Assembly: GCA_900764025.1 (NCBI GenBank)
Contig: CAAFMM010000430.1
Coordinates: 1-11,883, forward strand
Direction: 5' to 3'
Source: an uncultured Collinsella sp.
GTDB taxonomy: Bacteria; Actinomycetota; Coriobacteriia; Coriobacteriales; Coriobacteriaceae
Length of the DNA stretch: 11,883 nucleotides
Below, in pieces: positions 1 to 11,883 of the stretch (positions are counted from its first letter, which is position 1; every line of letters begins with the position of its first letter). Both the position numbers and the translations under genes were made by a program. The notes beneath the pieces are model-generated. The model saw nothing but the letters and a program-made list of their open reading frames with translations. It was not told where the DNA came from and ran no database searches.

Positions 1-2310
1 ATAGACGTACTCGCCGTCCGAAACGACGGTGCAGGAGCTCTGCGTCAAGTCCGTCAAACCAGGCGTCAGCCACTTGCAGATCAGCTTGTCTGCAGTAATC
101 GCCTGGACCGCACCGCCGTTGAGCGGAACGATGATAAGGCCGTTGGTATAGATCGGACGGGAGGTATAGCTCACCTTGGAGGCAAGCGGCGCAGAGGCAA
201 CCTTTTTGCCCGTGGACGAATCGATCTTAATGAGCTCGTTCTCGGTCGCGATGTACACAAAGCCGTTGGCGATGACAGGTTCGCTGCAGTTGGCATACTG
301 CTGACCAGACTCGGCCTTCCAATCGAAGGCCCACTTAAGACCGGCGGCCTGCGCAGGCGTCTTGGCATCCGTTACGGTCGAACCGTTGCCACTGTTGCCG
401 TAGCCGGCCCACTCGGCATCCCAATCAGGAGTCGTCGCGCTCGGATCCACGACAATCTTGTCGGGATCGGGCATGGGCGAATTATCGGTGGTATAGGCAA
501 GCGTGACCTTATCGCCGCTCTTGAGCGTAATCTGATTGGCGCAGAGTAAGGAGGGCTCTCCGTTGATATACAGATGCCAGTATTTATTGGTCGCAGCATC
601 CCAACCATACGGCTTGTGATCGAACGGCGAAGTAATGGAATTCAGGAACCAGTACTCACCACTCTGGGAGCCGTTGTACGCAACGCCCTTGGCCTTCAGA
701 ACTGCCTCAATAAGGTTCTGGGCCGTGGAGCCTTCGGGCAGAGAAACATTGCTTGCCGTGCCCCAACGCGTATTGTTCCCGTTGACATCGGGACCGATAA
801 CATCGGCGGATCCAAGCACCTGACCGGGGAGGACATCGGCGTCAGCACCATACATAAAGGTGACGGCGTCACCCTCCTGGAGCTTGTAGGCACCGGCGCC
901 AACGTCGGCGAACTTGCCATTTACGTAGAAGCGCCAATAGCTCTTGGTCGCAGCATCCCAGCCATAGGACTTACCATCAAACGGCGAAGTAATGCCGTTG
1001 AGGAACCAGCCCCAAGACGATTCGCCAGCATCGAGAGTAAGGCCGGTCTGCTCAAGGAGATCCTTGGCAGTAGAGCCTGCCTTGAGACTCGTCTGGCCCG
1101 TCGAAGCCCAAATCTGCTGCTTGCCGTCCTTGTCCTTACCAAGCACCTGAACGGAAGCATGAACGGAATCAGAGGGCAGCTGGTCGCCCCAGCCACCGTA
1201 GAACCACGTGACGGTATCGCCAACATGGATGGTGACATTGTCCGCCGTATAGTCACTCGACTTGCCGTTGATGAACAGCTGCCAATAGGTCGAATAATCT
1301 TGGGGCGTACCCAGTTCAACACCGTTGTACTTAAGGCTCAGAATGAAGGAGCCCGCAGCAACGGCGTCGATGCCATTCGCCTCAAGCGCGACCTTCGTAA
1401 GGTCAAGTGCGCTCGAGCCGGACGTCACCACATACTGCGCGTTATCGACCCAGGTCTGAGTCTTGCCCTGGGCATCGCGACCAATGACGGTCACATTTGC
1501 GGCAACCTGGTCCTTAACGACAGGGGACGAGCTACCAGCCGTATAGGCAAACTCAATCTTCTGCCCCTGGGTGAGCTTGACGCTGCTCGCGCCAACCGAG
1601 GAAGACGCGCCGTCGACGAACAGCTGCCAGTAGGCATAGGTCGTCGGATCGTAGGCAAGCGTGCGGCCATCGCTCGGGGATGTGATGCTTTCGAGGTAGA
1701 AACCGTATGCCGTGTTCGGATCGTACTTCGCCTTGAAGCCCGTCTTCTCCTGCAGCTTAATGAAGGCATCCGCAGCCGTCGCGCCCTCGTCGAGCTTGAG
1801 CTGCGTAGGTGCCACCCAGGTCTGAGCCTTGCCGTCAGCATCGGTGCCGATAATCGAGAACGAGACCTCGACCTGCTTCTTGGCAACATCGCCGGTTTCT
1901 GTCGGGTTCTCTGTCTGAACGGCAGCCGCGGCGGCAGATCCCACTTGGCCAGCGGATGCCGTCGAAGACTGCTCGCTCGTGGCAGGGCTCTCCCCCGTCG
2001 CCGAGCCTTCGTCGCCAGTTGCTGCCTCTGTTGTGGCTGCACTAGCTGCAGGCGCGCCCTCGGAATCCGAAACCTCGGCGCCGCTCTGCTCAGCGGTACC
2101 GCCCGCAAGCGCTGCGTCCTCGCCCGGCGTCGCAGTCTGAGCCACAGCCTCGGCAATGCCCTCGGCGCCCTCGGCCCACAGCTGAGCCGGTGTGGTGCCA
2201 AAGGCCATCGCGAAGGCCAGGAATGCCACCAGGCCGCGCTTGGCTACGCCGCGCGCAATTGCGCCACGGCGATGCGAGACGCGCTGGCGCTCGTCCTCAA
2301 ACATATCCAT
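1..2310 (-). CDS. Secreted multi-DUF4430 (transcobalamin-like) protein with PQQ-type beta-propeller, 3' end outside window
   Basis: At least 770 codons are in the window and the frame is still open at base 1. An export signal ends in a typical AQLWA|EG site (residues about 25-46), followed by an Ala/Ser/Thr/Glu-rich linker to about 140. Four repeats then follow at roughly 145-257, 268-372, 382-490 and 500-610. Each opens with an 'xVxVIGxDxxGKxQxW'-like strand, has a central 'YW(Q/R/H)(L/F)(F/Y)(V/I)(D/N)G' motif and closes with 'LxxGDxVxxxY'; this is the DUF4430 pattern, the fold of the transcobalamin/intrinsic-factor C-terminal domain. From about 631 the sequence resembles PQQ-like propeller blades ('PVIANGFVYIATENELIKID'). 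A cobalamin riboswitch lies upstream, so the likely role is surface binding of cobalamin or another corrinoid; this is inference. The ATG at 2310 follows AGGAG by 4 nt; an ATG at 2304, 10 nt away, is an alternative start. No cell-wall anchor is visible because the C terminus is missing. Confidence 0.85.
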   Translation of the reverse strand, partial: MDMFEDERQRVSHRRGAIARGVAKRGLVAFLAFAMAFGTTPAQLWAEGAEGIAEAVAQTATPGEDAALAGGTAEQSGAEVSDSEGAPAASAATTEAATGDEGSATGESPATSEQSSTASAGQVGSAAAAAVQTENPTETGDVAKKQVEVSFSIIGTDADGKAQTWVAPTQLKLDEGATAADAFIKLQEKTGFKAKYDPNTAYGFYLESITSPSDGRTLAYDPTTYAYWQLFVDGASSSVGASSVKLTQGQKIEFAYTAGSSSPVVKDQVAANVTVIGRDAQGKTQTWVDNAQYVVTSGSSALDLTKVALEANGIDAVAAGSFILSLKYNGVELGTPQDYSTYWQLFINGKSSDYTADNVTIHVGDTVTWFYGGWGDQLPSDSVHASVQVLGKDKDGKQQIWASTGQTSLKAGSTAKDLLEQTGLTLDAGESSWGWFLNGITSPFDGKSYGWDAATKSYWRFYVNGKFADVGAGAYKLQEGDAVTFMYGADADVLPGQVLGSADVIGPDVNGNNTRWGTASNVSLPEGSTAQNLIEAVLKAKGVAYNGSQSGEYWFLNSITSPFDHKPYGWDAATNKYWHLYINGEPSLLCANQITLKSGDKVTLAYTTDNSPMPDPDKIVVDPSATTPDWDAEWAGYGNSGNGSTVTDAKTPAQAAGLKWAFDWKAESGQQYANCSEPVIANGFVYIATENELIKIDSSTGKKVASAPLASKVSYTSRPIYTNGLIIVPLNGGAVQAITADKLICKWLTPGLTDLTQSSCTVVSDGEYVY

Positions 2311-2454
2311 TTGTCTCCTACTGTCTGCACTTGGAGCGTTGCCTTGAGACTGCCCCACGTCATCGCGCATGTTGCGCTCGAGTTCCCCCATCGGGGTCCC
2401 CCTTCCCTCCAGAGCCCTATGCACACCGGCGGCAAAAGCCGCAGCCGCATGCAA

Positions 2455-2625
2455 GACGGGAGGCGATCCGACTTAACCTTAACGACTCGGGCACGTCGTC
2501 CGATCTGCGACGCGAGCATCCCGAGCCAAGAGGAATTACGGTTACTGGTACAGCTGGGGACTTGCACCCCGATTCTCCCAAATGCGCAGGATAACCGCGC
2601 ATTCGTGCGTCTCCGCACCACCATC
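2455..2625 (-). ncRNA. Cobalamin (B12) riboswitch aptamer
   Basis: On the minus strand the conserved core (2536-2579) reads GGGAGAATC, then GGGGTGCAAGTCCCC, then AGCTGTACCAGTAACCGTAA. This matches the cobalamin aptamer signature of GGGAA, GGTGnAAnTCC and CnGCnACTGTnA. It is preceded by a hairpin with AATGCGC/GCGCATT arms (2582-2604). A peripheral helix (GCTCGGG/CCCGAGT) follows, and the aptamer closes with AGTCGGATCGCC (2463-2474), equivalent to the AGTCaGGAnACCtGCC end of the family. The leader continues about 140 nt to the ATG at 2310. It holds GC hairpins but no U-run, so control is more likely at translation than by an intrinsic terminator. Known members repress the downstream gene when cobalamin is plentiful. 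The aptamer boundaries are approximate. Confidence 0.87.
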
Positions 2626-2635
2626 TAGGCCATCG

Positions 2636-2741: not shown

Positions 2742-4505
2742 CTAGTGCTTGCCGCCGTGACTGTTGAGCCAGATATTGCGGCCCAACATAAGCGCCAGCA
2801 CCAGCGCGCTCACGTAGCCCATAAAGCCAATGACCGGGATACCAAACACAACCGGCTCGATGCGCGCGTAGTACACCACCGACGAACCGATAAACAGACC
2901 GGCGATCACAATTGCCATCGACATGCGGTCGATAATCCCACCTAGCTGTCGCAGCGCCTTATCGCTGCTCATGATCTGCGTGTTCACCTTAAGCTGGCCG
3001 CGCGTAAGCATACGCGAAGCCAAGCCCAGATACTCGGCCGCCTCGAGCGAGCCCTTCGCCGCGCGATAACTGCTCGCTGCAAAGTCGCGGCTCATCTCGC
3101 GCATGCGCGCATAGGTGCTTTTCTCGTTTTTAATATGCGTCTGGATGATTTGGATCATGTTGACGTTGGGCATGTACTCGGTCAACAGGCCCTCGAGCGT
3201 CACCATGCCGCGGGCGAACATCGTCACCACGCTCGGCAGCTCAACGTCATTTTTGCGCGCGAGGTTTAACAGCGAGGTCAAAAACTCGCCGATATCCAGG
3301 TCTTTAAGGTCGAGCCCGGCAAAGTCGGCAACAATAAAGTCCAAGTCGGACAAAAAGGCCGAATGGTCAAGCTCGGCCGAATCGCCGCGCGTCACGGCAA
3401 AGCGCATGAGCGAATCCTTGAGCTTTGGCACGTCGCCCTCGGCCACGGCAAAGATCATATCCTTGACGATGCCACGGTCGTGGCTCGACATGCGTCCGAC
3501 CATGCCCAAGTCGATAAAGTAGACAATTCCGTCTTTGAGGATGATGTTTCCCGCATGCGGGTCGGCATGGAAAAAGCCGTCGTCGAGCACCTGCGTCGAA
3601 TAGTCCTCGACGATTGCGGCACCGATCTTTTCCAAGTCATAGCCCTCGGCCACTAAGCGTTCAGGATCGGCGATCGAAATGCCGTCGACGTAATCCATGA
3701 CCACCACGTGCTCGGTGCACAGGTCCAGATAGGATTTAGGGCACGTCACGCCATGAACGCTCTTATGGAACTCGTAGAAGTCGTTGAGGTTTTTGGCCTC
3801 GGCCAAAAAGTTGGTCTCCTCGCGAAACGAGGTCCACAGCTCCTCGACTACGCCGTGCAGGTCAACGAATTGATCGGTATTGACGAACTTGGAAACGATA
3901 CGCACCACCGAGCGGATGATATCGATGTCCTGTGCCATAACCTGCTGCGCACCGGGGCGCTGCACCTTGACGGCCACGTCCTCGCCCGTCACCAGACGAG
4001 CGCGGTGCACCTGCGCGAGCGATGCGCTACCAAGCGGATTGGGGTCGATCGCATCGAACATCTCCCCCAGGCGCAGGCCGTATTCCTCTTCCAAGCAGCG
4101 GAGCACTACCTCGTACGGCACCGGCTCCACGTCGGAGCGCAAGCGGCGCAGCTCATCGCAAAAGCGTTGCGGCAGAATCTCGGACCGGTTGGCCAGAATC
4201 TGCCCCATCTTGACGAACATGGGGCCGAGTTCCTCGAGCAGGCGGCGCAAACGAACCGGCGTGAGGTTATCCCACACGCGGTACTTTTTAACCAGGCGAA
4301 CAATCTGCCCGATACGCTCGCGGCGACCCGCCGGCGTGAGCTGGTATTCCTCGTCCGGCGCCATCGCGTCGGGCTCCTCGGGCACCATATCGACAGCGCG
4401 CGGCTTCTTGCGAGCGCCCGAGACGGCGGCGTCGACCTCATCGACAACCGCCGCCTCGTCACCCAGGGGATCTAGTTTGTTGTAATCGGTGGTGGAATCT
4501 GCCAT
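2742..4505 (-). CDS. AarF/UbiB (ABC1) family atypical kinase-like membrane protein
   Basis: 587 residues. The family signature motifs appear in order: KMGQ (99-102), the KxGQ motif unique to this family; the Ala-rich nucleotide loop GSASLAQVH (159-167), which replaces the usual Gly-rich P-loop; VAVKVQRPG with the ATP-site lysine K180; the catalytic loop HADPHAGN (313-320); and DLG (332-334) in place of DFG. Two hydrophobic segments at about 529-547 and 552-575 would anchor the C terminus in the membrane, as in bacterial UbiB. The first 60 residues are acidic and poorly conserved. Known members are ATPases/kinases that support isoprenoid lipid (quinone) metabolism; whether this organism uses it for a quinone cannot be told here. 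It starts 8 nt after the phasin-like gene, so the two are probably co-transcribed and perhaps translationally coupled. A terminator follows. Confidence 0.93.
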   Translation of the reverse strand: MADSTTDYNKLDPLGDEAAVVDEVDAAVSGARKKPRAVDMVPEEPDAMAPDEEYQLTPAGRRERIGQIVRLVKKYRVWDNLTPVRLRRLLEELGPMFVKMGQILANRSEILPQRFCDELRRLRSDVEPVPYEVVLRCLEEEYGLRLGEMFDAIDPNPLGSASLAQVHRARLVTGEDVAVKVQRPGAQQVMAQDIDIIRSVVRIVSKFVNTDQFVDLHGVVEELWTSFREETNFLAEAKNLNDFYEFHKSVHGVTCPKSYLDLCTEHVVVMDYVDGISIADPERLVAEGYDLEKIGAAIVEDYSTQVLDDGFFHADPHAGNIILKDGIVYFIDLGMVGRMSSHDRGIVKDMIFAVAEGDVPKLKDSLMRFAVTRGDSAELDHSAFLSDLDFIVADFAGLDLKDLDIGEFLTSLLNLARKNDVELPSVVTMFARGMVTLEGLLTEYMPNVNMIQIIQTHIKNEKSTYARMREMSRDFAASSYRAAKGSLEAAEYLGLASRMLTRGQLKVNTQIMSSDKALRQLGGIIDRMSMAIVIAGLFIGSSVVYYARIEPVVFGIPVIGFMGYVSALVLALMLGRNIWLNSHGGKH

Positions 4506-5029: not shown

Positions 5030-6553
5030 CTACCTCACGTTGTCGTTCATCGCGAAAGAGTTCTTCATGGCGCAGCTCGTGGTGTAGAGCACCTTGCCCA
5101 ACAGGGCATCGGTCTCCACGCGCACGAGCTCGGCAAAGGCCTCGTTGGCGCGGGCGAGCTCGGCAGGCACCTCGGCCTCGGGCAGCGCGGCTACGACAGC
5201 GTCAACGTCGTGAATCTGCTTGTGGCCCATGCCGCCGACCTTCTCCTGGTAGTCCTCCACAGCGCGGCCGCACTCATGGAAACGGACGTCAGCCAGGGCG
5301 CCGATCAGGCGGTTGGCCCAGTAGAAGTTTTCGGACGTCACGCGAGCCTGCGTGTCGGCATAGTACTCGGGCATGGTCTCGACGTTGGCGTACAGCGGAA
5401 CCAGCGCGTTAAACGAGTTGGAGCCAAAGGCCATCCACTGCACGGCACGGTAGGCCGGCTGCGCATAGGGGCGCAGCTGCAGCACGGCGAGCTGGCTGTT
5501 GCGATTGATGCCGATGGGGCGATAGGCGCCGCGCGTGGCGGGCGTGCCCTTGCTGCCGTAACAGTCGTACTCCGTGCCCTGGTAGTGGCTCGAAAGCACG
5601 TACTTGATGTCCTCGATGGTCACCTTACGCTCGGGCACGCGGCTCCAGGGGATATCGTCGCTCTCGGGCGTGTAGTCGGCGTCGGGGCCGTCCCACACGT
5701 CGCCGGGGTTGAGGCAGCGCTGCATGTACCAGGCGCGCGGCGTGTTGTAGACATGGTCGCTGTCGCTGTGCGAGCCAAAGGCCTCGCGCGGGTTAAAGAC
5801 CGTTGCCGGACCGTCGCCCTCGACGCCCAACGTCAGGTCCAGATGCCACTCGGCCATCCAGGAGCGCAGGTCGGCCGAGCACATGTGGTCGGTCTGGGCG
5901 CCCTCGGCGTCGTCTAGGTCAAAGCTGTCGATACCCAGCTGGTTGGGCATGGTCACATAGGCGTCATCAGGCACACGCTTGGCGATCCAGTGGTGGCCGC
6001 CGATGGTCTCGAGCCACCAGATCTCGTCCACGTCACTAAAGGCGATGCCGTTGTTCTCGTAGGTGCCGTAGCGCTCGAGCAGGTCGCCCAGGATACGAAC
6101 GCCGTCGCGGGCGGACTTGGCGTACGGCAGGACCAGGGACACCATATCCTCCTCGCCCAGGCCACCAGGTTGCGCCGGCACATAGCCGTCCTCACCCTCG
6201 TTGCCCTTGGCGGGTACGTAGTCGACGAGCGGGTCGGCACCGCGGACGCGCTCGTTGGTGGTGAGCGTCTCGGTTGCGGACATGCCCACATTGAGCTCGT
6301 TGAAACCGGCCTCGGCCCAGATGCCGTGGCCCGGGACAACATCGGGGACGCTCGTGTAGCGCATGGGGTTATTGGGCAGTTCAACGGTCAGGTGGCTCAG
6401 GACGCTTGTGTAGACGCGCGGCTGCTCGTCGGGATGCACCACGCGTATACGTTTGGGCTCAAACACCCCGTTGGACGAGTCCTCGTTACGCGCGACCAGG
6501 GTCGACCCGTCGTAGCTTGCGTTTTTACCGACCAGAATCGTTGTGCACGGCAT
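5030..6553 (-). CDS. C69-family dipeptidase (PepD type)
   Basis: 507 residues from the ATG at 6553. That start is supported by AAGGAGG six bases upstream (6560-6566); an ATG at 6559 directly abuts the ribosome site and is unlikely. The N terminus MPCTTILVGKNASYDGS is typical of peptidase family C69 (Ntn hydrolases): Cys3 is the predicted nucleophile, exposed by removal of the preceding residues. Further family features are ARNEDS (21-26), EAGFNELNVGMSATET (81-96), DEIWWLETIGGHHW (176-189) and MPNQLGID (202-209). Length fits the family, about 470-540. There is no signal peptide, so it is probably a cytoplasmic enzyme that cleaves dipeptides. It appears monocistronic, transcribed from the region of the inverted-repeat element upstream. 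Confidence 0.95.
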   Translation of the reverse strand: MPCTTILVGKNASYDGSTLVARNEDSSNGVFEPKRIRVVHPDEQPRVYTSVLSHLTVELPNNPMRYTSVPDVVPGHGIWAEAGFNELNVGMSATETLTTNERVRGADPLVDYVPAKGNEGEDGYVPAQPGGLGEEDMVSLVLPYAKSARDGVRILGDLLERYGTYENNGIAFSDVDEIWWLETIGGHHWIAKRVPDDAYVTMPNQLGIDSFDLDDAEGAQTDHMCSADLRSWMAEWHLDLTLGVEGDGPATVFNPREAFGSHSDSDHVYNTPRAWYMQRCLNPGDVWDGPDADYTPESDDIPWSRVPERKVTIEDIKYVLSSHYQGTEYDCYGSKGTPATRGAYRPIGINRNSQLAVLQLRPYAQPAYRAVQWMAFGSNSFNALVPLYANVETMPEYYADTQARVTSENFYWANRLIGALADVRFHECGRAVEDYQEKVGGMGHKQIHDVDAVVAALPEAEVPAELARANEAFAELVRVETDALLGKVLYTTSCAMKNSFAMNDNVR

Positions 6554-6634
6554 GCGCATCCTCCTTGAGCGAAGAAATCAAACGGCAACAGTGTATCGCT
6601 TCGGCGCAGAAAGGGCGAAACCACGGCGCTGGCA

Positions 6635-6905: not shown

Positions 6906-7760
6906 CTATTTCGATGCGCGCTCCGCCGCCTCAATCACGTGTTTGGCGAGAATCGCGGTGGTCACAGCCCCCACGCCGCCCGGCACGGGCGTGATGGCGT
7001 TAACGACCGGCTCCGCAGCATCAAAATCGATGTCCCCGACCAGCTTGCCAGCAGCCTCGTCCCAGTTAATGCCAACATCAATGATCGTCTGGCCCTCGCG
7101 AACGGCATCCGCGCCAATCGTGCTCGCGCGTCCAACGGCCGCAACAACGATATCGGCAGAACGGCACTCGGCAGCAAGATCGCGTGTATGCGTATGGCAC
7201 GTCGTCACCGTGGCATTGCGAGCCGTAAGTGCGGCGGCAACGGGACGCCCGATCACCAGCGAGCGCCCGACCACAGCAACCTTAGCTCCATCCAGCTCAA
7301 CGCCGTAATGATCCAGCAAAGCCAGCACGGCTTCGGCTGTGCAGGGGGCAAAACCCTCGCCGCGCCCCGAAAGCGTGGTGAGCAGCGAAGCCGGCGTCAT
7401 GGAGTCAACGTCCTTGGCGGGATCGAGCGCTGCGGCGACGGCGTTCTCGTCAAGGCCGGCGGGCAGCGGGCGGAACATCAAACAGCCATGAACAGCCGAA
7501 TCGGTATTGATGTCCTCGATGGCCGTCAACAGCTCGTCCTGCGAAACATCGGCAGAAAGCAAAACGCGACGAGCCTCAATCCCCACTTTTTCGCAGCGCT
7601 TGAGCGCACCGCGCTCGTAGGATAGGTCGTCCTCGCGTTCACCTACACGCACGATAGCCAACGTCGGAACAACGCCCCGCTCGCGCAGGGCTGCGCAGCG
7701 AGCAGCAAGTTCCTCAGTCAAAGCGCGAGCAACGGGAGCACCCTTCAGCAGTTCAGCCAT
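6906..7760 (-). CDS. folD: FolD-type methylene-tetrahydrofolate dehydrogenase, predicted cyclohydrolase-deficient
   Basis: 284 residues, the usual FolD length. The ATG at 7760 has AGAGAGG six bases upstream; a longer frame from 7826 would overlap the upstream gene. The N-terminal folate domain has GVVPTLAIVRVG (29-40), SY (47-48), KDVDS (116-120) and FAPCTAEAV (137-145). The dinucleotide domain has GRSLVIGRP (165-173), ATVTTCH (183-189) and DVGIN (228-232). ITPVPGGVGAVTTA (256-269) closes the protein. Aligned without gaps to E. coli FolD, the catalytic lysine (YxxxK; Lys54 in E. coli, Lys56 in human) is Ala52, and the Gln of VQLPLP is Phe96, within LMFRPLP. The Asp of DVDG is kept (Asp119). 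The family oxidises 5,10-methylene-THF to methenyl-THF and usually hydrolyses it to 10-formyl-THF; the second step is probably lost here. The gene starts 2 nt after a cyclohydrolase-family gene. Confidence 0.92.
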   Translation of the reverse strand: MAELLKGAPVARALTEELAARCAALRERGVVPTLAIVRVGEREDDLSYERGALKRCEKVGIEARRVLLSADVSQDELLTAIEDINTDSAVHGCLMFRPLPAGLDENAVAAALDPAKDVDSMTPASLLTTLSGRGEGFAPCTAEAVLALLDHYGVELDGAKVAVVGRSLVIGRPVAAALTARNATVTTCHTHTRDLAAECRSADIVVAAVGRASTIGADAVREGQTIIDVGINWDEAAGKLVGDIDFDAAEPVVNAITPVPGGVGAVTTAILAKHVIEAAERASK

Positions 7761-7762
7761 GG

Positions 7763-8395
7763 CTATCCTCTCTTCCTTGCAGCGTCGGAGGCGCGGCGCG
7801 CCAGCGCATCGGCGCGCGGCAACCATGTGTCGAGCAACTCATCACACGCCGTCTCGAGCTCCTTAGCACGAGCGCGATCCTTCATAGACGTGGTGTTCGC
7901 AAAGAGCGTCAAGCTCGCGCCCTGCATAGCGGCACGGCAGAACACGGCGCCGCACGCCACATCGGACAGCAGTTGACGCGAACCCTTGTCGGCCATGTCC
8001 TCGAGCAGCGCCAGCGCACGCCCGCAGGCATCCATAATGCGATACGGCGGCAGAGCGGCCACATGCAGCGCATCCTGAATCGCGGTCGCTCGAGTCGGAT
8101 CGTCACGCGGAATACCGTACGCCGCGGACACCTGGCCGTACGCACGAACGTCCTCGGCGACCAGACCCACAAGTTCCTGCGCCAACTCATCCGCCTGGGC
8201 AAACGCGCGCGTCAGATCGTCTGCGCGATCGGCAAGCGCAGGGTTTGTCGCCCCATAGCGAGCAACCATCCCGCAAAGCGAGGCGCCCAGTGCACCTACA
8301 AAGGCGCTCGCGCTACCGCCGCCGGGAACCGGCTCGCGTGCGGCAAGCGCCTCGGCAAACTCTCGACATGTTTTATCCATCATCTCTTGGCTCAT
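7763..8395 (-). CDS. fchA: Cyclodeaminase/methenyl-THF cyclohydrolase family protein (FchA type)
   Basis: 210 residues, matching the stand-alone FTCD C-terminal (cyclodeaminase) domain. The hallmark EPVPGGGSASAFVGALGASL (21-40) forms the folate-binding loop; AEDVRAY (80-86) carries the conserved acidic site, and SDVACGAVFCRAAMQGA (144-160) is the conserved C-terminal helix pair. Stand-alone members act either as formimino-THF cyclodeaminase or, in acetogens and purinolytic clostridia, as methenyl-THF cyclohydrolase. The folD neighbour, which lacks cyclohydrolase residues, favours the second role; no formiminotransferase gene is visible nearby. The ATG at 8395 is preferred, with AAGG nine bases upstream; a GTG at 8401 is too close to it. 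It is first in a two-gene operon, with TAGCCATG joining it to folD. Confidence 0.9.
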   Translation of the reverse strand: MSQEMMDKTCREFAEALAAREPVPGGGSASAFVGALGASLCGMVARYGATNPALADRADDLTRAFAQADELAQELVGLVAEDVRAYGQVSAAYGIPRDDPTRATAIQDALHVAALPPYRIMDACGRALALLEDMADKGSRQLLSDVACGAVFCRAAMQGASLTLFANTTSMKDRARAKELETACDELLDTWLPRADALARRASDAARKRG

Positions 8396-8422
8396 ACGCA
8401 CGCACCTTCAAGTCATATACAT

Positions 8423-9754: not shown

Positions 9755-11883
9755 ATGACCGAACACCATGCCATCAGCCGCCGAGCGTTTACGCTGGGCC
9801 TAGGGCTTGCGGCGTTGTCACCACTTGCAAGCCTGCCTGAAACCGCAGCGCCGGGCATTCCCCTGCGAACGGCATTTGCAGACAACACACCCGCACCGTC
9901 GGACAGCCTCGACAATTTCGTCATTCGCCTTCGCCCCGCGGGCTATTTTCGCACCGCGAGCGTCAACCAAGACGGCAACGTTCGCGGCAACGTCTGCCAC
10001 CTGTTTAACGACGGCACGTCCAGCAAGCTCATCCTTGAGAACGTAACGACCAAGAATGACGATACAAACTGGTATGCTATCCGCACCTTGCTCAATTTCG
10101 AAGAGCATAAAAAGACGGGCTACAGCATTTGGTCGGTCGACGACGACTCGGACAAAGATGGAAAGGTCATCCACGTATGGGGCGGCGAGTATGACAACAA
10201 GCCCAGCCGCGCTTTTGCGTTCGAACGTCAATCAAACGGAACCTATATCATTCGAGACCGCACGGTCGAGAAAGAAACCGAGAAAAAAGACATTAAGTAC
10301 CTGGCAATAGAATCGGACGGCAAAGACCAGGACAACAATAAGATCTGCCATAAGAGTAAGAGCATTCCGTGGGAGCTAGAACTTGTCGGTTACGACATGG
10401 GCAAGATCAATACCACAGTTAGAAGTATCGACTGGACCACGTATAGCAGCTACGTCGACGGACCATGCTGGATGAAATACGTCGACGACAACAAGTACCT
10501 CGACGAGCTGAGTATCCCGGGCACGCATGATTCGGGCACCTGCAGCGTGGACAACGACACCGAGCCCCAATCCTCACAAGCAAAGTGCCAGCAGGATTAC
10601 ATCCCGACGCAGTTGCTCGAAGGCATTCGCTATTTTGATATCCGACTCGGAAGGAACGACGAGAACGGCGACCCCGGTATCGACCATGGAAGATGCTACC
10701 TGCTCAAAAAAGACGGGGGCTTTATGCATCTCTCCGATGTCATCGGTTACTTCAAAACATTTTTGAACGAAAACCCGTCAGAAGCGCTCATCATGCTTGC
10801 GTCACGAGGCAACGACGAGGCTACCGACGAAAGCGTTACGACGGCTTTCGCCAAGGTTATGCACGATAATCCCGATCTGTTCTACACGTCGAGCCGAATC
10901 CCCACACTGAACGAGGTGCGCGGAAAGATCGTCCTGCTGCGTCGATTTGTACTCGCCGGCAACAGCGTAAGCAGCCACACGTGGGGCCTCGATCTCACCC
11001 AATGGGACGACAAAATCAAGGCGCATTCCGGGCAGTCGATGTGCCTCGTCCAAGACGCGCGAGGCTTTGAGACTACGGGCAATGCGGGCGACAAAGAGCC
11101 CTATTGCACCAAGGTATACGCCCAGGACCATTTTGAATGCACCGGAACCGACAAGATTAGCTGGGTCGATATGGCGCTGCGAGAGACGACCAATCTCACG
11201 CGCAACAAGGTGGACGTCGAGGACAATGATGGCGCCAAGGTGCAAGTCCTGGAACGCTGCTGGTCTATCAACTACACCAGTTGCACGAATTACAAACAAG
11301 GAAGCAATCCTTTTACCGCGGCGCGAGTGGTCAACGAGCATCTGTACAAGAGCCAGTACATCAATCCCAGCGGCAGCAATAAAACAAAGTCAGATTGCCT
11401 CAAGCACGTTGGCATTATCGCGTCCGACTTTGTCGATTCGGCACTGGCCCGGAGCATCTACCAACGCAATTACGACGCGAAGCACAAGCCAACAGTTTCA
11501 TGCTGCCTCCCGGACCGCATGCACATGACGTATGGAGACTCGCTGAGCGATGCCTCGCTCCAAGATGGCAAGACCGTTGGCGAGGGCCATTTCCGCCTTG
11601 TCGACAGCAGCAACGTACTCAACGTGGCCGCTTCTGGCAGCGCGTTTGCCATCGAATACGTGGATGTCGACGCCCTGGGCAACGAGACCGTTACGGGGCT
11701 GCAGGGCTCTGTGCCCATCGATATCGATCGACGCGCGCTGACGCCCCATTTTGAGGGACTCGAAGGCCTTAAGGCCGGCGAAGACGTGCGCGCCAAGATT
11801 GCGGCATCACTCGAGGGCAAGCTCGAAACCGATGCCTGCACGGCCCAGCTCGAGTTTGTGCACGACGCGAACGGCGCTCCGGG
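9755..11883 (+). CDS. Tat-exported phosphatidylinositol-specific phospholipase C with accessory domains, 3' end outside window
   Basis: 709 complete codons are present and the frame is open at the right edge. GGAGGAG lies just before the ATG. SRRAFTLGL (8-16) is a twin-arginine motif followed by a hydrophobic segment, with likely cleavage after AFA (40-42). Residues about 52-213 look like a beta-trefoil (ricin-type) lectin region with repeated 'xYxIRxx' strands; this is tentative. Residues about 243-575 are a bacterial PI-PLC X domain: LSIPGTHDSGT (252-262) carries His258/Asp259, GIRYFDIRLG (290-299) Asp295/Arg297, and DHGRCYL (310-316) His311. These correspond to His32, Asp33, Asp67, Arg69 and His82 of the B. 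cereus enzyme. NPSEALIML (340-348) and RGKIVLLRRF (389-398) also match. The Arg indicates the Ca2+-independent type. After about 585 Ig-like repeats begin (MTYGDSLSDASLQDG; later LEGLKAGEDVRAKI), resembling MBG/YDG-type modules. Expected to cleave phosphatidylinositol or GPI anchors outside the cell. Confidence 0.92.
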   Translation, partial: MTEHHAISRRAFTLGLGLAALSPLASLPETAAPGIPLRTAFADNTPAPSDSLDNFVIRLRPAGYFRTASVNQDGNVRGNVCHLFNDGTSSKLILENVTTKNDDTNWYAIRTLLNFEEHKKTGYSIWSVDDDSDKDGKVIHVWGGEYDNKPSRAFAFERQSNGTYIIRDRTVEKETEKKDIKYLAIESDGKDQDNNKICHKSKSIPWELELVGYDMGKINTTVRSIDWTTYSSYVDGPCWMKYVDDNKYLDELSIPGTHDSGTCSVDNDTEPQSSQAKCQQDYIPTQLLEGIRYFDIRLGRNDENGDPGIDHGRCYLLKKDGGFMHLSDVIGYFKTFLNENPSEALIMLASRGNDEATDESVTTAFAKVMHDNPDLFYTSSRIPTLNEVRGKIVLLRRFVLAGNSVSSHTWGLDLTQWDDKIKAHSGQSMCLVQDARGFETTGNAGDKEPYCTKVYAQDHFECTGTDKISWVDMALRETTNLTRNKVDVEDNDGAKVQVLERCWSINYTSCTNYKQGSNPFTAARVVNEHLYKSQYINPSGSNKTKSDCLKHVGIIASDFVDSALARSIYQRNYDAKHKPTVSCCLPDRMHMTYGDSLSDASLQDGKTVGEGHFRLVDSSNVLNVAASGSAFAIEYVDVDALGNETVTGLQGSVPIDIDRRALTPHFEGLEGLKAGEDVRAKIAASLEGKLETDACTAQLEFVHDANGAP

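Follow-up and report, generated by a model that had tools for sequence, protein, structure and literature searches.

Corrinoid capture before import is little described in Gram-positive gut bacteria. In Bacteroides, BtuG, BtuH and DUF4465 proteins are described as riboswitch-regulated, exported B12 catchers encoded beside an importer (PMC6143338, PMC8941943, PMC13398666), and BtuG is described as a seven-bladed propeller (PMC6143338). In lactobacilli, the exported DUF4430 protein LGG_02295 / LRHMDP2_2713, which is small (14.3 kDa) and has one domain, lies next to rtpR, a neighbourhood that points to an adenosylcobalamin-dependent reductase, and is annotated as a lipoprotein forming an additional component of a putative ECF transporter for cobalamin (PMC9963975); the part of that paper dealing with the protein mentions neither a riboswitch nor tandem repeats. 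The importer ECF-CbrT of Lactobacillus delbrueckii (6FNP) is described as a transporter of cobalamin and cobinamide, with the gene cluster nrdJ-cbrS-cbrT-pduO (PMC5997447). Since the lactobacillus annotation ties bacterial DUF4430 to B12 uptake, this function is only partly new. A surface form with DUF4430 in tandem and under riboswitch control appears to be new: in the literature searched (with subscription journals mostly outside it), none of the titles dealt with such a DUF4430 surface protein, whether tandem or riboswitch-controlled, or with B12 capture by Collinsella.

The window analysed here, a stretch of 11,883 nucleotides from an uncultured Collinsella sp., carries a cobalamin-type aptamer between an ABC1-kinase gene (2742-4505) and a gene for an exported protein. 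With good confidence, we interpret this locus as encoding a B12-repressed corrinoid trap that feeds an ECF importer and forms the regulated front end of the Collinsella scavenging system. The features on which this reading draws are the following.

2454..2626, minus strand: cobalamin-type riboswitch aptamer (sub-threshold RF01689 match, covariation in 14 sequences, letters checked)
2626-2621 paired with 2459-2454, minus strand: P1 helix of the aptamer (comparative structure)
2556..2570, minus strand: P5 hairpin GGGGTGCAAGTCCCC of the aptamer core (four invariant pairs in 14 sequences)
2474-2467, minus strand: AAGTCGGA, on which the long P6 arm of the aptamer closes (alignment of 14 Collinsella elements)
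2401..2417, minus strand: likely ribosome-binding segment, 3' of the aptamer and 5' of the ATG at 2391-2389 (counterpart of GCCCTGGAA-type segments in relatives, by eye)
1..2391, minus strand: large exported DUF4430/propeller protein, its 3' part outside the window (open frame, Pfam, full ortholog at locus L033 of genome G001)
1534..1881, minus strand: DUF4430 repeat 1 (Pfam; model m056f356b1fbf matches haptocorrin, intrinsic factor and transcobalamin)
1186..1509, minus strand: DUF4430 repeat 2, without part of the ligand-facing loop of transcobalamin (Pfam)
835..1167, minus strand: DUF4430 repeat 3 (Pfam)
484..819, minus strand: DUF4430 repeat 4 (Pfam)
1..336, minus strand: start of a beta-propeller, cut by the window end (BamB, E 0.0036; fold of the ortholog's propeller)

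Other genes of the window include those for a C69 family dipeptidase (5030-6559, minus), an overlapping one-carbon pair of FolD and FTCD_C (methenyl-THF cyclohydrolase-like; 6906-8401, minus) and a secreted PI-PLC-X domain protein with a start that looks twin-arginine-like by eye (9755-11881, plus).

Taken alone, the window copy of the aptamer falls below the Rfam cut-offs. Scanning the whole window at gathering thresholds gave no match, and a lax scan of 2300-2900 gave RF01689 (AdoCbl-II) at 2589-2508 on the minus strand with 29.0 bits and E 1.1e-4, against a gathering score of 36.5 bits for this family of the cobalamin clan CL00101; this is given as the single match, a second, lower-scoring match of the same clan being omitted. 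It spans the aptamer core only and misplaces the 3' side, and the comparative structure lengthens the element to P1. Energy folding of the leader was uninformative (z -1.17), as 11 of 100 shuffles folded equally well. In G001, the nearest genome compared, RF00174 had no match at E 0.001.

The comparative evidence is firmer. An alignment of 14 Collinsella elements presents, in order, P1, a short hairpin with a GAGA loop, a variable arm, P5 and the long P6 arm. Its 38 pairs in seven helices are paired in 93.5% of cells, a percentage favoured by the structure having been drawn by eye on the same alignment; sliding the partners by 1-3 columns lowers it to 35-46%. Changes on both sides occur in 20 of the 38 pairs, compared to a mean of 10.7 in shuffled alignments, none of 500 reaching as high. 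P5 and the base of P6 are invariant in the 14 sequences and hence give no covariation evidence for or against these helices. The core letters, P5 and the regulon are held in common with the Rfam AdoCbl-II and Cobalamin riboswitches of CL00101, from which the window copy differs in its score below the cut-off and in an additional hairpin of the P6 arm, around CAGATCGGA, that is conserved across the genus. Two further pairings seen by eye, one between the P5 loop and the letters just 3' of P1 and one between CCTCC at the 3' side of the aptamer and the ribosome-binding GGAGG, were rejected, as both are absent from the few other loci viewed.

Among relatives, RF01689 matched at E 0.1 in 29 of 39 genomes (22 of the 24 of the genus) and passed its cut-off in seven of the 39; four loci of the window's genus (L006-L009) reach the gathering score. 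The 14 aligned elements (that of the window and those of 13 Collinsella loci) served to train a covariance model, R1. Its matches number 98 places, spread over 87 of the 197 genomes of the order and 33 of the 35 of the genus. R1 had no match in the other two (G021 and G068), in several DUF4430-bearing relatives (e.g., G028, G032, G036, and G037) or at a second place in G001. At one locus (L107), two minus-strand matches form tandem cobalamin-type aptamers before a DUF4430 gene, and two nearby places also occur on contig C1 of G087. The earlier note had placed the aptamer at 2440-2640, which agrees with the comparative structure (2454-2626), and had called the regulation close to certain. That certainty is not to be had from the window, where the cobalamin models match at lax settings but not at the gathering score; it is reached once the relatives are added, and control by a cobalamin riboswitch is now supported by the sub-threshold match, the covariation, the matches in relatives and the Rfam cut-offs passed in regulon loci.

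Genes downstream of the aptamer were followed at 60 of the 98 R1 places (54 outside the genus, plus six ECF-type or unusual places within it), leaving out 29 of the window's genus, nearly all of window type, and nine weak, truncated or tandem places. Within ∼7 kb, DUF4430 genes were found at 49 of the 60, ECF genes at 32, and both at 31. The 11 places without DUF4430 were followed by genes for CbiK (two), CbiL and CbiD (one), BtuF (three), RACo (one) or ECF components (one), and three (L127, L135, and L146) had no DUF4430, ECF or corrinoid gene downstream. Genes of these kinds are thus present at 57 of the 60 places and at eight of the 11 lacking DUF4430, figures that stand without a random-place baseline. 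Because the DUF4430 model and the queries for ECF and corrinoid genes derive from these same loci, the counts are biased towards such families. Names from the libraries were checked for example loci only: CbiK, TP_methylase, CbiD, Peripla_BP_2 and DUF4430 were named; ECF ATPase, RACo and ECF S component examples scored above the library cut-offs, CbiQ (CbiQ-type EcfT) just below, and BtuF-, CobU- and corrinoid-activator-like matches below theirs. Independently of R1, 21 of 56 loci (10 of 19, nine of 20, and two of 17) have, at the R1 position, a match to a cobalamin-clan family that exceeds its own Rfam cut-off; L127 and L146 are among them, both barely over. Usually, the aptamer is followed by the genes for the large and then the small DUF4430 protein, and these by EcfT, EcfA and S component genes; in some loci (e.g., L099-L102 and L112), the small DUF4430 protein alone precedes the ECF genes. 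The linkage to ECF, BtuF, CbiK, CbiL/CbiD and RACo genes supports the role in corrinoid uptake proposed before. The RACo-type corrinoid activator gene lies at 542-1885 (plus) of L139. Secreted proteins with a similar start follow the CbiK-like genes of L113 (1598-2800, plus) and L134 (1553-2764, plus), and that of L113 has a weak NEAT match, under the cut-off.

The large protein begins at ATG 2391 or ATG 2310, the latter preceded by TAGGAG; its first 770 amino acids, counted from ATG 2310, lie in the window, and the gene exits at the left end. DUF4430 (PF14478) matches it in four stretches with 156.4 bits (curated cut-off, 23.8; E 2.6e-46), preceded by a stretch that by eye is hydrophobic and signal-like. 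These results confirm the earlier description of an aptamer directly upstream of a secreted protein with four DUF4430 repeats and the start of a propeller. The full-length ortholog in G001 has four DUF4430 domains, the propeller, a Flg_new repeat and a low-complexity stalk, and its C-terminus ends in a segment that by eye is hydrophobic. All Pfam propeller scores, including the weak one of this ortholog, are far under the curated cut-off, and a structural model supports the propeller. Matches to DUF4430, propeller and Flg_new recur together in L117 and L119, DUF4430 with propeller in L104, and DUF4430 with Flg_new in L109. When searched against the named genomes, the window protein found 14 loci, all Collinsella, with a best segment 90-97% identical in 13 (in one of them across 56 residues only) and 38% identical in one. 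Between two Collinsella strains (L033 6001-9678 and L045 6001-9423), the ends of the large protein and the neighbouring genes are near-identical by letter, but the ectodomains between are only ∼25-65% alike and differ in length by one DUF4430, an exchanged cassette.

Directly after the large gene in G001 is a gene for a 305-amino-acid DUF4430 protein that has, by eye, a hydrophobic stretch close to the N-terminus. CbrS of L. delbrueckii may, as a guess, be the same kind of protein. In the G001 small protein (L003/L033), the loop at the cobalamin-phosphate site of transcobalamin is altered, and the other small DUF4430 proteins matched have one different loop in common. A candidate association between loop variant and ectodomain type of the large protein was rejected, since only L003/L033 (one strain, G001) is odd and the common loop occurs with both types.

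DUF4430, named transcobalamin-like in InterPro, is a relative of the beta domain that transcobalamin, intrinsic factor and haptocorrin share (5np4, 3kq4, and 4kki); of this carrier family, the window protein has the beta domain. A profile of 21 domains and a structural model both bear out the kinship, as had been proposed. As a lone query against the PDB, the window protein found weak BamB matches only and no transcobalamin, and the profile was therefore needed. In contrast to the animal carriers, the Collinsella protein has four tandem copies of the domain, is placed on a bacterial surface, has a propeller attached and has no visible alpha domain: the full ortholog gave no Pfam match to the helical alpha domain, and its 956-residue model contains only short helices. 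A genome search with PF01122 (0 of 39) is no evidence of absence, as the control search was equally empty. The sub-picomolar affinity of transcobalamin requires the alpha domain. The propeller had been likened to BtuG, a comparison that the solved folds leave unsupported rather than contradict: the best 50 matches are filled by BamB-like and eight-bladed propellers (BamB, YxaL, Rv3035, tetrathionate hydrolase, and designed eight-bladed propellers at the top) and do not include BtuG. The likeness to BtuG, BtuH and DUF4465 is rather that of a riboswitch-regulated, exported system catching B12 (predicted in Collinsella); the Bacteroides proteins, as described, have other domains, are outer-membrane lipoproteins and, in BtuG, have seven blades, whereas the Collinsella propeller is nearest to BamB-like folds.

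The large protein could instead be an adhesin or scaffold that binds no corrinoid, with DUF4430 as a structural, ubiquitin-like domain under a real riboswitch, while the small protein and the ECF transporter handle B12. Its low-complexity stalk, Flg_new repeat and C-terminal anchor are adhesin-like, its ectodomain varies strongly between strains while the ends are alike, and it is the one-domain form that most often adjoins ECF genes when no large partner is present (e.g., L099-L102 and L112). However, where a locus has two DUF4430 genes, in most cases the large one comes first behind the aptamer, and repeat 1 has the carrier fold including the ligand loop, which makes this reading unlikely. 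That the protein catches not free corrinoid but B12 carrier proteins of the host or of neighbours, or a different tetrapyrrole or a metal, is very improbable: the solved relative 3u7z is labelled a putative metal binding protein and one aptamer-linked secreted protein (that of L113) has the weak NEAT match, but the best relatives of the domain are themselves B12 binders and the regulon is of corrinoid type.

The RNA itself might be a variant aptamer that has lost cobalamin sensing and responds to a different ligand, and the score under the Rfam gathering score and the extra conserved hairpin in the P6 arm could be read in this way. This is extremely improbable given that four loci of the genus (L006-L009) score above the RF01689 cut-off and that elements found by the same model precede genes for CbiK, CbiL/CbiD, BtuF and RACo. 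Against the corrinoid trap itself we count the sub-cut-off score of the window aptamer, the unlinked ECF operon of G001 and the lack of a second aptamer place there, the genomes lacking an R1 match or a B12-binding domain match, the CbiD genes and reported precorrin-2 auxotrophy described below, and the missing alpha domain.

The S component of the linked ECF operons has 6fnp_A as its sole strong solved relative (E 4.2e-15 for a profile of 10 sequences, and 5.6e-5 for a single Collinsella sequence), followed by 4hzu (0.0026) and RibU 3p5n (0.011), and is thus a relative of ECF-CbrT. The Collinsella-type systems differ from the latter in their DUF4430 partners and riboswitch. A CbrT-like S component is present in all 24 genomes of the genus, and in G001 it belongs to an EcfT-EcfA-S operon on a contig other than that of the window-type locus, to which the operon is unlinked. 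A corrinoid transporter, which the earlier note had suggested looking for to the left of the gene, is not there in G001, where the second DUF4430 gene is followed by genes on the opposite strand. A third G001 contig encodes a MetH-like protein with two B12-binding domains (L166 97-2655, plus; contig C5), of 852 amino acids with S-methyl_trans and Pterin_bind; the activation domain is not among its listed library matches. Two of the 24 genomes of the genus (G005 and G015) have no B12-binding domain match despite having the aptamer and DUF4430. CbiD is found in 10 of the 24, most of them window-type and including G001, so that some or all of the corrin is synthesised by these bacteria; in a review, C. 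aerofaciens is classed not as B12-dependent but as a precorrin-2 auxotroph (PMC8123684). Both points speak against a pure scavenger, and besides B12 the system may salvage corrinoid precursors.

From the structure and conservation of the RNA, the homology and fold of the domains and the linkage of the genes, we infer a ligand, a direction of control and an order of relay. Plentiful intracellular corrinoid would lower expression through the leader riboswitch, probably at translation, as expected from the riboswitch class. When corrinoid is scarce, the open leader would allow two exported proteins to be made: the large surface protein, with its four transcobalamin-beta-type domains, beta-propeller and C-terminal anchor, and the small, membrane-tethered DUF4430 protein. 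The DUF4430 domains would bind corrinoid outside the cell, as homology and context suggest, and the small protein may hand it to the CbrT-like ECF importer, as the gene order in relatives suggests. The earlier note had raised the further possibility that the protein might compete with intrinsic factor of the host. Imported corrinoid would then supply methionine synthase (MetH) and other users. Translational control is likely, judging from the GCCCTGGAA-type segment after the aptamer and the lack of a terminator-like site there. The strict motif, with ribosome-binding letters 3' of the aptamer, is present in 31 of the 46 sequences with a 3' anchor (15 of 61 were skipped, the anchor not being found, and the window's own segment misses the strict motif). 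Both terminator-like sites in 2250-2760 of the minus strand (2737-2722 and 2690-2667) lie upstream of the aptamer, and none lies downstream of it in this interval.

We advance more tentatively, as a possibility falling a little short of an even chance, that the order Coriobacteriales runs a complete Gram-positive capture-relay, in which a cobalamin riboswitch is combined with a multi-site surface trap of tandem beta-type domains lacking the alpha domain, with a small DUF4430 shuttle and with an ECF importer of the CbrT type; that the B12-carrying domain of animals is a relative of a bacterial corrinoid-scavenging module; and that the ectodomain cassette is exchanged between strains, perhaps altering corrinoid preference. 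If the corrinoid-trap reading is true, Collinsella and its order use tandem copies of the fold found in their host's B12 carriers, controlled by a B12 riboswitch, and a widespread domain of unknown function would gain a function, with single soluble domains directly assayable for binding. The gut would then hold an extra competitor for B12, and the finding would bear on the origin of the beta domain of the animal B12 carriers.
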